Origin: an uncultured Candidatus Poseidoniales archaeon
Lineage (GTDB): Archaea > Thermoplasmatota > Poseidoniia > Poseidoniales > Poseidoniaceae
Assembly (NCBI GenBank): GCA_905182635.1
Contig: CAJJCM010000066.1
Span: 1 to 34,196, forward strand
Direction of reading: 5' to 3'
Length of the DNA: 34,196 nt
Positions 8,782 through 29,961 of the stretch are shown one piece after another. A model generated the notes under the pieces. That model saw nothing but the letters and a program-made list of their open reading frames with translations. It was not told the origin of the DNA and did no database searches. Position numbers and translations under genes: made by a program. Each line of letters opens with the position of its first letter. Position 1 is the first letter of the stretch.

Positions 8782-9423
8782 TTAGTTTCCATCCAGTTGT
8801 TTTTGGTTGATTTTATGTCCCATGCGTTCAACTTTCGTCTCTAAATAAAAACGATTTTGGTCACCAACACCCACGACAAGCGGAATCAAATCAACCACAT
8901 TGATTCCATGTTTTTCTAACTGCTCACGCTTGTTTGGATTATTTGAGAGTAGACTGACTCGATAAATATCGAGTGCTGAAAGCATGCTCGCAGCAATACT
9001 GTAATCTCGCCCATCAGCAGGTAGGCCAAGCATCAAATTCGCATCAAGTGTGTCTGCACCTTTATCTTGCAAATGGTAAGCCTGAATTTTGGCATGCAAA
9101 CCGATGCCTCGACCTTCTTGGCGTAGATAAAGCAAGCAACCCCACCCACGTTCGACAATGGCTTTCAAAGCGGAGTCGAGTTGTGGACCACAGTCACAGC
9201 GTAGACTCCCCAGCACGTCGCCAGTCAAACATTCTGAATGTACTCGCACAATCACCGGGTCAGGACCTTTCATGTCACCAATTGTAAGTGCTACATGGTC
9301 GAAGCCTGTTGATGACTCATGGAAAATACGGATTTGGAAGTCACCATGAATCGTTGGAAGTTTTGCTTCACTTGGAACTGAACTGTTTTCCACTAATTCA
9401 ATCGATTCAAGTATTTCAGTCAC
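8782..9423 (-). CDS. ribA: GTP cyclohydrolase II
   Basis: RVHSECLTGDVLGSLRCDCGPQL zinc/active-site motif, LYLRQEGRGIGL motif, C-terminal NPNKREQLEKHGI. Confidence 0.93.
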   Translation of the reverse strand: MTEILESIELVENSSVPSEAKLPTIHGDFQIRIFHESSTGFDHVALTIGDMKGPDPVIVRVHSECLTGDVLGSLRCDCGPQLDSALKAIVERGWGCLLYLRQEGRGIGLHAKIQAYHLQDKGADTLDANLMLGLPADGRDYSIAASMLSALDIYRVSLLSNNPNKREQLEKHGINVVDLIPLVVGVGDQNRFYLETKVERMGHKINQKQLDGN

Positions 9424-9807: not shown

Positions 9808-10893
9808 ATGAGCACGAATTCTAAGTCCTCCTCAACAAAAGAGGATTTGAATTGGTCTGAAGTTGGTCAGCTCGGACTTCGATATGCGCGAATCCCATTG
9901 GCTTTACTGTGTGTTGAAGCCTTTTACTGGTTTTTAACTCAACCTTCTGATACTTTGGCGCCGTTACAAGTGACTGAGGCATGGTTATGGAATGAAATTA
10001 CTAATTTGTTGTACAGTGATGGAGAATATGCAGCCTCTTATTTGTCAACGCATAATGGATGGATGACGCGAATTGATTTTGTCCATGTTAACTTCCCTGG
10101 GAATTATGACACGGTAGGCTTGTATGTTTCAGATGAATGTGCTGGCGTCCATGAAATGATCTTCTTGTCGACGCTTGTGGCAATGACTGAAGGTGTACCA
10201 CAACGCCTCAAAATCCGTTCTATACTCGTCATGTGTAGCATCATCTATGTCCTCAATATAATGCGACTGGTGGTGTTCTATCCAATAGCAATGAACGATT
10301 GCGCAGTGAATCCAAATGACCCCGCATGCCTATCTGGAATGTGGGAGTACCACACTGCAGTCTATAAGTGGGGATTTTTGTTGGTTCTCGTAACAATGTG
10401 GGTGGTTTGGTTTTGGAAAGTTGGAGGACCTGCACGAACACTTGATGCAAGCGTTTCAGATGTTGCAGGTGATGAGAAATGGCGATTGAAATTTAGAAAC
10501 TCTTGGGCATCAAAGCACTATTTCCTTCTCATAGGAGCACTGCTACTCATGATGTTCGCAGTACACAATGTTACTTCAAATGAGGAAGCAATGGCGGCAA
10601 AAAAGACTCTTGATTTCTGTATGTTCTCGGAACTTGTATCCTCTGATTGTGGAACAGCGCAAAATCGGTGGGATGATGCCATTGGATATGCTTGGTCACT
10701 CTCTGCACTTGGTCTGGTGATACTCGGGGCAACCTCAGTGGTGATTCAAAGACCAGATGAAGAGGGTAACTGGCCGATAAAAATTCTACCAGAGAATGAC
10801 TTGAAATCTCTTGAAGTTGAGGAAAAGATTCCTCGATCACGACATAATAAGAAAAAATCTGGGTCGTGGAAAAAGAACAGAGAAGAAGAGTGA
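9808..10893 (+). CDS. Exosortase/archaeosortase-family membrane protein
   Basis: Multi-TM protein with the ordered motifs DECAGVHEMIFLSTLV (Cys), YVLNIMRLVVFYP (Arg) and EYHTAVYKWGFLL (His) typical of the Cys-Arg-His/Arg exosortase fold. Confidence 0.78.
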   Translation: MSTNSKSSSTKEDLNWSEVGQLGLRYARIPLALLCVEAFYWFLTQPSDTLAPLQVTEAWLWNEITNLLYSDGEYAASYLSTHNGWMTRIDFVHVNFPGNYDTVGLYVSDECAGVHEMIFLSTLVAMTEGVPQRLKIRSILVMCSIIYVLNIMRLVVFYPIAMNDCAVNPNDPACLSGMWEYHTAVYKWGFLLVLVTMWVVWFWKVGGPARTLDASVSDVAGDEKWRLKFRNSWASKHYFLLIGALLLMMFAVHNVTSNEEAMAAKKTLDFCMFSELVSSDCGTAQNRWDDAIGYAWSLSALGLVILGATSVVIQRPDEEGNWPIKILPENDLKSLEVEEKIPRSRHNKKKSGSWKKNREEE

Positions 10894-25530: not shown

Positions 25531-25646
25531 TCCTCCTAACTCCCCTTCGCCACGCACCTGTTGATGAAACCTCGCTTCGATTCAACCCCGAAACAAAGAG
25601 ATGAAGGGGGCCGGCATCCTCGGCGTGACATGATGGGTGGTTGTCA

Positions 25647-26594
25647 ATGATGAAACTCCCGCGTTTTGTTGTTTCTTGCACATTGTGCCTCCTCATTATG
25701 GCTTCGAGCGGTGCTTTGGTTCAAGCGCAGGTCATCGATACATCCGAGACATTACTCACCCCTATCGCAACCGACCCAATGGGTCGCAGTCTTCTGATAG
25801 AAGAAGTTACAACCACATGGTGCCCAACATGTGCTCAAATCGACCCCTATCTCATGGGCGTAGCTGATTCACATGGTTCACGAATTACGATGGTTGCCTA
25901 CCACCCATCCGATGGAGAAGATGCTTTTCAGCCACCTGCTGCCCAACATCGCATCGATCGACTCGGCATTCACCATGGCGGCGCAATACCTTCGCCTACC
26001 TTCTTCGTAGAAGGCAAGAATCCTCGCTCAGGAACGGATGCTTGGAATGATGTGCAACGTGATATTCTCGAACTTGAGTTGACCCGTCAAGATACATCGA
26101 CTCTCCAGTTTGAAGTGGTCCGCAATGAGAATGGAATCACTGCTCGATTACTTTCATTTGAAACAAATATCCCTGAATTTAATGACTCACAATTGACGTT
26201 TCTCGTTCTCGAACATCAAAAAACAGTCCCTACGGGTTTTGTGAATCCCGGAGAGAAAACGCGTGACCGCGTATTGGTTGCCACTGCAGAATGTGAGTTC
26301 AACACTTCAACCATCAAAGTTCAGTTTGAACTCTTAAATGCTGGTGTTGATGAAGGATGTGGCACTGATTTTGAAATCACGTTTGAATACATGGATGAGT
26401 TTAGCATTCTTTTACTTCATGAAAATACCGAAGATGCAATTGTGAACTTGGAGGCTCCTCTTGGCACGTATGGTGCAGTTGAATTCGCATACCGCTCACG
26501 ATTACTTCCTCAATCATCATGGTCGTTGGTCAGCATTGCATTGTTCATCGCAGCCGCTGCAGGCCTCATGGCGATAGTACCGCGTAAGAACTGA
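25647..26594 (+). CDS. Membrane-anchored secreted thioredoxin-fold protein (CPTC)
   Basis: Signal peptide RFVVSCTLCLLIMASSGALVQA; VTTTWCPTCAQIDPYL active site; C-terminal TM WSLVSIALFIAAAAGLMAIVPRKN. Confidence 0.8.
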   Translation: MMKLPRFVVSCTLCLLIMASSGALVQAQVIDTSETLLTPIATDPMGRSLLIEEVTTTWCPTCAQIDPYLMGVADSHGSRITMVAYHPSDGEDAFQPPAAQHRIDRLGIHHGGAIPSPTFFVEGKNPRSGTDAWNDVQRDILELELTRQDTSTLQFEVVRNENGITARLLSFETNIPEFNDSQLTFLVLEHQKTVPTGFVNPGEKTRDRVLVATAECEFNTSTIKVQFELLNAGVDEGCGTDFEITFEYMDEFSILLLHENTEDAIVNLEAPLGTYGAVEFAYRSRLLPQSSWSLVSIALFIAAAAGLMAIVPRKN

Positions 26595-26617: not shown

Positions 26618-26980
26618 ATGTTTGATAAAGGAAATAATCTACCGGATTCCGGAAGAGTTTCGATGCAATACTGCGCAGCATTGATAACCTACCCTGCCTA
26701 TTTGGATGTAATGGCAGAAACATGGGATGACGTAACCAAGGATGGCACTCAGCCTCTCAAAGAGTGGGTTGTTGAATACACTGTATTAGTGAATCGAAGT
26801 ACAAATCATCACCTCAGTATCATGTATGGTGAAGAGATCGCAGATGTTCAAAGAAGTCTGTTGCATGAACTTAGAAAAAGTTACGGCGAAAATGAACGTA
26901 TTGATGTCACTGTTCAACGAATGGAAGAAATCCAAGACACCTCAGAACCAATCCCCTTTGAAGGCAGTTTCACACCTTAA
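26618..26980 (+). CDS. Hypothetical protein, 120 aa
   Basis: Coding-like composition; same strand as the upstream thioredoxin-fold gene; no family recognised. Confidence 0.6.
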   Translation: MFDKGNNLPDSGRVSMQYCAALITYPAYLDVMAETWDDVTKDGTQPLKEWVVEYTVLVNRSTNHHLSIMYGEEIADVQRSLLHELRKSYGENERIDVTVQRMEEIQDTSEPIPFEGSFTP

Positions 26981-27576
26981 TTGACTTTGGAGCGGTAATG
27001 GACTTCAATCACTTCACCGTTTTGCAAAAGATAGTCGTCAAAGGATGTAACACGGTTCTCCACAGTTGCACTTTCTCCTGAGGCATGGACATGCATGACC
27101 ATTTCGTGAGTGGAGTTGACACGGTAATCAAAAATCCCAGTTTCATTGAAATGATAACCCCAGATGTCAAAAAATACACCGAGTGGGACATCGCCAGCCT
27201 CGTTGACTTCGATATGAAGCCTTCCTGAGCCATCGTGGGTGTGAATGACGTGCATGTTGTTTTCATTGCCATTACAGACCTCAGTTTGAACCCCTGTGTC
27301 GGATTCAACAACATATTGGTTACCATTGATAAAAACTTGCAAAGTAACATGGTCATGACGTGATAATTCTGCACCGTGTTGGACACAATCCAAGGCTAAG
27401 GGGTCTGGTGAATCCGCCGTTGAAGAAAGACTTTCGGTCGTAGTCGAATCATCATCAATTGCATCAGCTTGCGCATTTCCATCTTCAAAGAGCCCCTTGT
27501 CTTGGGCGTAAAGAACGAGTAAGGCTGCTAAAGCCACTGCAGTTACGACACTCCAAAAAGCCATCTCTCGATTCAT
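26977..27576 (-). CDS. Membrane-anchored His-rich protein with HTHDxSGxLHIE...LGxFFDIWG motif
   Basis: N-terminal TM (MNREMAFWSVVTAVALAALLVLYA); MHVIHTHDGSGRLHIEVNEAGDVPLGVFFDIWGYHFN; two Cys; directly downstream of VKOR. Confidence 0.75.
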   Translation of the reverse strand: MNREMAFWSVVTAVALAALLVLYAQDKGLFEDGNAQADAIDDDSTTTESLSSTADSPDPLALDCVQHGAELSRHDHVTLQVFINGNQYVVESDTGVQTEVCNGNENNMHVIHTHDGSGRLHIEVNEAGDVPLGVFFDIWGYHFNETGIFDYRVNSTHEMVMHVHASGESATVENRVTSFDDYLLQNGEVIEVHYRSKVN

Positions 27577-27590
27577 AGTTCCACCTTTCT

Positions 27591-28181
27591 CTAAACAGCG
27601 TTCCATTCATTGCCCTGGTTCATCCGCATCAAGCGAAGGAATCCGATAAACGCTGCAATATTTGCAAGGTGCGCTGTGGAACAGTATTGGCAGATTTTTT
27701 CCATTTGAATCTCATAATAGATGAGGAGGCCGATGACAAAGAAGCCGGCAAAAGTGATGTAGGTTCCATATTTAAGATACGAAGTCACCCAATTTGCATT
27801 TGGTTCCTTTGAAGAAGAATACACCAAATACAAAAGAATACAAAAGACTGCAGCACCAATTCCACCCCAAGGTATCCCGAAAATCGGGTCGGTATTGTAG
27901 TTTGAATTTCCAATTACGTCATCGCATGAAAGTATCGAGTTCGATGCACAAAAGTTCCCACCTTCACTTATTTTTGATGATATCCAAAGCGTTTGGAACG
28001 AAACGGCCATACCTGCGAGACAGGTGAGAATGAGGCCAAAAAATACTCTGCCTCGTTCACTTCCTAATGATGGAAACTTCTCGGAAAACGGTGTGGCTAA
28101 TGAACGCCCTATAGGGAGCACCAAAACAAGACCAACGACGGTTGGAATGAGGTAAATCATCAATTGGAGGTTCGGATCCAT
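27591..28181 (-). CDS. Vitamin K epoxide reductase (VKOR) family protein
   Basis: 196 aa; multi-TM; CASNSILSCDDVIGNSNY loop cysteines and MEKICQYCSTAHLANIAAFIGFL redox CxxC motif. Confidence 0.88.
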   Translation of the reverse strand: MDPNLQLMIYLIPTVVGLVLVLPIGRSLATPFSEKFPSLGSERGRVFFGLILTCLAGMAVSFQTLWISSKISEGGNFCASNSILSCDDVIGNSNYNTDPIFGIPWGGIGAAVFCILLYLVYSSSKEPNANWVTSYLKYGTYITFAGFFVIGLLIYYEIQMEKICQYCSTAHLANIAAFIGFLRLMRMNQGNEWNAV

Positions 28182-28868
28182 TCAAGCCTCAACTCCTGCT
28201 CTCGGAACCAATGTGATGATCGCATCACGGATATCATCGTTTGGATGTTCGGCTGAACTCCATGCAATGATGCCATCAGGTTGGATGAGGTAATAACTCG
28301 GTGTACCGCTGACTTTCCATTTCTTCATGTTCTCTTGATCAAGGTCATCAATATACGGGAAGTTGTGAGCTGAGCCTGGCCTTGAAGCGCAATCTTTGCC
28401 ATTACAACTTTCACCAGAGTCCGCCGTTTTATCACGGAAAGCAATAATCTCAGCACGGCTGGATTCATGGCCTGGAATATCAAGTTCAGTCGCGCTGGCA
28501 ATGAAGTTGACTTTCGCTCCATCCCAGCCGGAATTGCCAGCAAAGTCTTGTGAGTTCGTGGCCATGTCGGCTGCAGATGCCACACAATACGGGCAGTCTG
28601 TATCCATGAATTCAATGACGACCCATTCGCCGCTGATGTCGCCTTCTTCCCAACTGGAATTCCAATACGATTCCAAATTGAAATCAGACCAACCTACACC
28701 GTTGTAAAATTGTCCTTCAAGTGCTGGTGCACGTTCTCCTTCTTTGGTTCCTGTTGCAATTGGGCTGGTTGTAGCAGCAATAATCATGATGCCAACAAAG
28801 AAGAGAGCCATAACTCGAATCAATACTGTCGTTCGTACATCTGCTTCATCATCGTAGGTGTGCTTCAT
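28182..28868 (-). CDS. Secreted/membrane-anchored thioredoxin-like (TlpA/DsbA-like) protein, CPYC
   Basis: N-terminal TM; WVVIEFMDTDCPYCVASAADM; KKWKVSGTPSYYLIQPDGIIAWSS (cis-Pro region). Abuts VKOR with no spacer. Confidence 0.87.
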   Translation of the reverse strand: MKHTYDDEADVRTTVLIRVMALFFVGIMIIAATTSPIATGTKEGERAPALEGQFYNGVGWSDFNLESYWNSSWEEGDISGEWVVIEFMDTDCPYCVASAADMATNSQDFAGNSGWDGAKVNFIASATELDIPGHESSRAEIIAFRDKTADSGESCNGKDCASRPGSAHNFPYIDDLDQENMKKWKVSGTPSYYLIQPDGIIAWSSAEHPNDDIRDAIITLVPRAGVEA

Positions 28869-29827
28869 TCTTTCATCTCCTCATCGATTCCAATTTCTTG
28901 AATAAGTGCTTTGGTAGTGTGGCGGATAGCAGCCTCGCTGTTAAACCGGACATCGTAGCCTGTCGACATCATCTTATCAATCCCGAGCATTGCCCTTGGG
29001 ATGTCGCCAGCCCAGCCTCGGTCGCCACCGGTATATTCGATGGTTGCATTGTGGCATCCCGTTTCTTCAACAACTATTTCAGCAATTCTTCGGACTGAGG
29101 CAGTATCATGCGAACCAAGGTTGAAGAGATTGAGGGGGTCATCGGTATGTTGCATGACATGAAGTATTCCATCGACGCAATCCTCGACTTCCATGTATGA
29201 TTTTTCTTGCAAACCATTTCCAAGTACTTCCAGGCGGGAAGGGTCGGCTTTGAGTTTGTGAATGAAATCAAAAATGACGCCATGCGTACCACGTGTTCCT
29301 ATAATGTTGGCAAAACGGAAAATCCATGCTTGTAAACCGAATGTTCCAACCCAACTGCTGATCAGACCCTCACCGGCTTGTTTACTCGCACCATACAATG
29401 AGATGGGCAAACAAGGACCATGATTTTCAGGTGTTGGGAGTGGAGCATCTTCGCCATAGACAACAGATGAAGAAGCAAAAGCAATTTTCTTTACATCGCA
29501 ACGGCGCATTGCTTCGACGACGTTGTAAGTCGCAAGTGTACCTTGTTTCAAGTCGGTATCTGTGATGCGGGTTCCGAGGCGAATATCTGGGTTTGCGGCA
29601 AGATGAAACACACAATCAATGCCTTCCATTGCAGCATGAACCGTATCAAAATCCGTCACGTCCCCTTGAACGTGAGTGACAATTCCAGAGTCGAGATGGG
29701 ATTGAATGAATTCCAGTTTTCCACTCGAAAGGTTATCCAACGCAACAACACTGTCGCCTCGCGCTACTAAACGGTCAATCAAATGAGAACCGATGAACCC
29801 TGCACCCCCAGTGACTAATGCTCGCAT
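28865..29827 (-). CDS. NAD-dependent epimerase/dehydratase (UDP-glucose 4-epimerase-like)
   Basis: MRALVTGGAGFIGSHLIDRLVARGDSVVALDNLSSG; ASSSVVYG; SLYGASKQAGE (YxxxK). ATG 29827 preferred. Confidence 0.9.
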   Translation of the reverse strand: MRALVTGGAGFIGSHLIDRLVARGDSVVALDNLSSGKLEFIQSHLDSGIVTHVQGDVTDFDTVHAAMEGIDCVFHLAANPDIRLGTRITDTDLKQGTLATYNVVEAMRRCDVKKIAFASSSVVYGEDAPLPTPENHGPCLPISLYGASKQAGEGLISSWVGTFGLQAWIFRFANIIGTRGTHGVIFDFIHKLKADPSRLEVLGNGLQEKSYMEVEDCVDGILHVMQHTDDPLNLFNLGSHDTASVRRIAEIVVEETGCHNATIEYTGGDRGWAGDIPRAMLGIDKMMSTGYDVRFNSEAAIRHTTKALIQEIGIDEEMKE

Positions 29828-29961
29828 GGTCGCAACAGGAAACACACATCTATGAGCCTTTGCGAATATTGTTTTCATGAAACAGCGATGGCTTTGATAA
29901 CCGTTAACGATATCCTACAAGATTACTGCCAAGGATAAAACCGGCAGTGGAGTTGAAAAAC

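Follow-up and report, generated by a model that had tools for sequence, protein, structure and literature searches.

Why is a His-rich, membrane-anchored protein encoded directly downstream of VKOR in a marine archaeon, and does that position reveal what the protein does? The window, by which we mean the whole 34,196-nucleotide stretch analyzed, comes from a Candidatus Poseidoniaceae metagenome-assembled genome (MAG), whose host group ranks among the most abundant uncultured archaea of the ocean. The first-pass annotation took the linkage of this protein, here called HTHD, to VKOR and thioredoxin as a sign of a candidate new component of disulfide or metalloprotein maturation.

That annotation described a real gene: the open reading frame, with its motif MHVIHTHDGSGRLHIE...LGVFFDIWGYHFN, lies 14 bp from the stop codon of VKOR (Table 1). 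It starts with an ATG at 27576, just after AAAGGTGGAACT, a GGTG-containing stretch; an alternative in-frame ATG at 27606 would give a 209-aa protein. HTHD contains 12 His and two Cys (C64 and C101) and is the last product of a co-directional epimerase-TRX-VKOR-HTHD unit, in which the TRX gene abuts VKOR and all genes are separated by at most 14 bp or overlap slightly. The small protein encoded convergently adjoins the VKOR unit across Poseidoniaceae, and is also found at two loci of the sister family f2 (L132, L133). Elsewhere in the window, by eye, a multi-pass protein at 9808-10893 resembles archaeosortases or exosortases and a protein at 8782-9423 resembles RibA-type GTP cyclohydrolase II. 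The best database matches of HTHD are from Candidatus Poseidoniaceae (Marine Group II) MAGs. Homologues turned up in 203 of the 244 Poseidoniales genomes, and the motif histidines vary hardly or not at all, even as far as bacteria, so the protein is far beyond what chance would produce.

Table 1. Features of the HTHD locus, in window coordinates.
Feature	Position	Strand	Description
HTHD protein, 199 aa	26977-27576	minus	Candidatus Poseidoniaceae MAG
HTHD, membrane anchor			N-terminal, about residues 3-26
HTHD, linker			acidic, Ser/Thr/Asp-rich
HTHD, predicted beta-grasp domain			about residues 58-199; predicted extracytoplasmic
HTHD, His/Glu cluster	27208-27357	minus	invariant or nearly so in archaea and bacteria
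H74xH76	27349-27357	minus
H112xH114 with D115	27232-27243	minus
H121xE123	27208-27216	minus
Cys pair C64, C101	27385-27387, 27274-27276	minus	predicted structural disulfide, from co-occurrence
VKOR homologue, 196 aa	27591-28181	minus	Pfam VKOR PF07884, E 5.8e-14
TRX, thioredoxin-like (AhpC/TSA) anchored protein, 228 aa	28182-28868	minus	TDCPYC motif; AhpC-TSA E 4.3e-9
NAD-dependent epimerase/dehydratase	28865-29878	minus	heads the unit; E 2.6e-47
Conserved convergent small protein, up to 120 aa	26618-26980	plus	no confident family; DUF6956 E 0.029
Omp28/TlpA-like secreted thioredoxin-fold protein	25641-26594	plus	TTWCPTC motif; Omp28 subfamily 8.3e-5, under its cut-off

The earlier description of HTHD as a membrane protein applies to its single N-terminal anchor helix, but the rest is a soluble domain beyond the anchor. 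This domain probably lies outside the membrane, given the anchor and the fusion of its relatives into secreted proteins. AlphaFold2 modeled HTHD with 40 archaeal homologues at a mean pLDDT of 91.3, and the soluble domain alone (42 rows) at a pLDDT of 95.4 and a pTM of 0.89. The model itself is confident and reads as a predicted beta-grasp, whose top Foldseek matches in the PDB are the transcobalamin beta-domain (7qbe, 5no0) and 3u7z, a deposit named 'putative metal binding protein' that we take to be of the DUF4430 kind (probability 0.95-1.0, TM to target ~0.55-0.58, E 4e-3 to 0.1). Because the E values are weak, this likeness is one of fold and falls below family certainty. The DUF4430 profile PF14478 has no match in this genome at E≤10, and none appeared in the Pfam scans.

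In scans of the protein and its members, none of the Pfam, NCBIfam or PHROG models accounted for the family. HTHD is therefore best seen as a family without a name that belongs to a familiar kind of protein, and not as a new system. An uncharacterized envelope family shared by archaea and bacteria, as had been surmised, is what was found. Sequence searches of solved structures, run with the protein itself and again with a profile, gave no matches; there was no credible structural match in a viral structure library, and viral contigs and phages yielded no relatives. Literature searches on the HTHD motif, and on VKOR together with either HTHD or Marine Group II, found nothing, and a search for 'YHYH' with copper found nothing relevant. 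Two candidate identities were rejected. DUF7363 (PF24063) scored 12.8 bits (E 0.19) against a curated cut-off of 28.3 and was matched by one of 20 members, and a thioredoxin or DsbA-like identity fails on the absence of a CxxC motif, the 37 residues between C64 and C101, and the lack of a Pfam thioredoxin match.

Conservation separates the histidines from the cysteines. In 40 archaeal rows, C64, H74, H76, H112, H121, E123 and W139 are invariant and H67, G95, M108, T113 and H114 nearly so. When archaeal and eight bacterial plasmid members are considered together (20 rows), H74, H76, G95, H112, H114, H121, E123 and W139 are invariant, and D115 of the HTHD motif nearly so. A conserved His-rich set is what would be expected of an extracytoplasmic metal-binding protein, and HTHD has one. 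The joint His and Cys conservation implied by the first-pass annotation thus holds for the histidines, down to bacteria, but not for the cysteines, which are not family-wide: both are present in 5 and both absent from 11 of 16 bacterial rows, with one alone in none. Since they come and go together in bacteria, C64 and C101 probably form a structural disulfide. Three rows of an HTYD type, from another family of the same archaeal class (f3), have the first Cys only; in two archaeal paralogues fused to GDSL, and in one repeat from Paraburkholderia, the His set is lost and both Cys remain. The simplest reading of these patterns is that HTHD has two separable parts, a putative functional site of His and Glu residues and a structural disulfide that is optional.

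HTHD has relatives throughout Poseidoniales and in a sister lineage; others, detected by tblastn, are carried on bacterial plasmids. The plasmid proteins have only ~21-25% identity to HTHD and mostly lack the Cys pair, but share HxH, G95, HTHD, HxE and W139, which places them in the same family. Examples of their genes lie directly downstream of a P-type ATPase gene on pFRL4 and of merB on pACHL02. Of 16 non-redundant plasmid loci, which are not all independent, metal genes lie within 7 kb at 11, in several cases immediately beside the HTHD gene, and five show none; in the control, a small one, metal genes occurred in one of four 50-kb stretches (200 kb, 184 genes) of four such plasmids, and plasmids are a biased sample enriched in metal genes. 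MerR and a P-type ATPase are immediately upstream at Streptomyces and Mycobacteroides loci, as are merA-merB at two Pseudarthrobacter loci. A P-type ATPase occurs with DUF305 in Pimelobacter, and DUF305 alone in Acidovorax; the Curtobacterium gene is next to an HMA/P-type ATPase and a metal-sensitive regulator, with a multicopper oxidase as well; CopC/CopY are near the gene in Mycolicibacterium vanbaalenii, and further mycobacterial loci have a P-type ATPase. The metal partners comprise P-type ATPases, MerR/CsoR/CopY regulators, merAB, CopC, DUF305 and multicopper oxidase, in a bacterial context drawn from plasmids. One Mycobacteroides plasmid copy (L071:6695-7600) is annotated short because a stop codon interrupts it just before the HTHD motif.

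One archaeal locus, of family f3 (L094:1885-8594), also has a metal partner. There, the HTYD variant lies beside SCO1/SenC (1.5e-26) and a TlpA-type protein, the latter followed by an apparent CcdA; the locus encodes two thioredoxin-motif proteins, and a secreted protein next to HTYD that has no Pfam match is possibly cupredoxin-like. The linkage to SCO1 comes from this one archaeal locus; two related loci (L095, L101) keep the upstream protein, and SCO1 was not seen nearby. The invariant HxH/HTH/HxE pattern, the bacterial metal-resistance context and this SCO1-containing locus together give indirect support for putative metal binding by HTHD.

The position that raised the question argues for a different role, in which HTHD, with a cycling Cys pair, works in the VKOR-TRX disulfide pathway as a chaperone or redox partner. 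HTHD directly follows VKOR in 38 of 40 fetched VKOR-type loci, the exceptions being a contig end and a rearranged genome; L052, which is among these 40 loci, comes from a genome classified in f2 but has the arrangement of Poseidoniaceae (f1), and may be a binning error. An Omp28/TlpA-like gene is convergent next door, TlpA/CcdA occur near HTHD in some plasmid loci, and in one genome (G018) an HTHD domain lies in frame behind a TlpA-like (CSNC) domain (contigs C6, L018/L136, and C104, L135). In that genome TlpA-CcdA is joined to the HTHD anchor beside VKOR and the two TlpA copies differ at their C-termini; the fusion may be an assembly chimera or a rearrangement or recombination product. Because the swap occurs in only one genome of a 40-genome sample of its genus, with the TlpA-CcdA gene apart from HTHD in the others, we give it little weight. 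On a tree of 48 HTHD rows the VKOR-linked copies group together (83/76), with one change needed in 88% of bootstrap trees, and the 38 linked loci therefore amount to about one move. A pathway member would be expected to occur consistently with and next to VKOR, which was found in 178 of 238 Poseidoniales genomes, but each gene occurs without the other. HTHD is cleanly missing from at least 12 Poseidoniaceae loci that have epimerase-TRX-VKOR and the convergent genes, judged as far as the contigs reach and leaving out L112 and L113. VKOR and the epimerase likewise occur without HTHD at seven f2 loci, six with a recognizable TRX. Conversely, HTHD occurs without any VKOR match in seven genomes of genera g12 and g14; with MAG completeness of 84-94%, any single absence carries little weight, but the pattern is consistent across each genus, and the three copies read keep both Cys. 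The usual f2 neighbor is RtcB, with AlkA or AlaS near, and this position recurs in one f1 genus (L099); such neighbors, typical of most Poseidoniales outside the VKOR-linked group, are uninformative about metal. Linkage to VKOR is thus not general but limited to part of one family, mapping to a single origin on the tree. With no CxxC in HTHD and no Cys in most bacterial rows, we consider a working role in the disulfide pathway quite improbable, and the proposal of a new disulfide-maturation component is not supported in the form given.

The fusions raise other options. HTHD domains occur in secreted proteins with FSH1 serine hydrolase and YHYH, with YHYH alone and with BD-FAE (L086, L087, L088, L058), and tandem or fused copies occur in bacteria. 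GDSL hydrolases also carry a degenerate HTHD with both Cys and no His cluster (L089, L090, L091). Association with three esterase-type hydrolases (FSH1 with YHYH, BD-FAE and GDSL), the tandem copies and the transcobalamin-like fold keep alive the idea of a secreted ligand- or surface-binding accessory module, whose His cluster would serve a ligand or substrate rather than metal handling. We regard this as unlikely, as it leaves the metal-operon contexts and the invariant HxH/HTH/HxE pattern unexplained, and the loss of the His set in the GDSL-fused copies suggests another role for the stand-alone form. Having so many invariant polar residues in one domain (H74, H76, H112, H114, H121 and E123, with D115 nearly so) could also befit a small metal-dependent enzyme with a catalytic His/Glu cluster, and the YHYH domain is itself a predicted Zn-dependent hydrolase (PMC7824862). 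However, the top structural matches include no enzyme and no metabolic context recurs, making catalysis very doubtful.

The explanation we favor, at about even odds (roughly 0.5), is that HTHD is an external domain, anchored in the membrane, that binds metal, most probably copper or another soft metal. Metal binding is the likeliest function because the His cluster is conserved and the bacterial relatives are often in metal-resistance clusters. H74xH76, H112xH114 and H121xE123 would form the metal site on the beta-grasp scaffold, the C64-C101 disulfide would tie the N-terminal segment to the loop before the HTHD motif, and the protein would act at the membrane's outer face to buffer, sequester or pass on metal. 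The Poseidoniaceae gene would have moved into the TRX-VKOR operon, where VKOR may at most oxidize C64-C101; as the disulfide would stabilize the domain, HTHD would at most be a client of VKOR and not a component of its pathway. A more ambitious version is a long shot: HTHD could be an undescribed archaeal-bacterial extracytoplasmic metal-receptor domain, a beta-grasp relative of the B12-carrier beta-domain that delivers or buffers copper on the outer side of the membrane, in which the VKOR-made disulfide of Poseidoniaceae controls whether metal is bound and links the handling of copper with oxidative folding.

The family spans the divide between archaea and bacteria and turns up repeatedly in operons for mercury, copper and heavy metals, yet Pfam, NCBIfam and PHROG have no model for it. 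With a metal site that can be tested, a function could be assigned both to HTHD of Marine Group II and to unnamed genes of resistance operons. The case also illustrates how one gene move can lie behind dozens of genomes that look 'linked'.

Among known systems, HTHD resembles in its predicted fold the transcobalamin beta-domain and DUF4430-type proteins (5no0, 3u7z), but adds the HxH/HTH/HxE cluster and the Cys pair, and lacks a sequence match to PF14478. With CopC, DUF305 and SCO1, which occur in some HTHD loci and whose Pfam and NCBIfam models do not match it, the likeness would be one of function, the His-rich handling of metal outside the cytoplasm.
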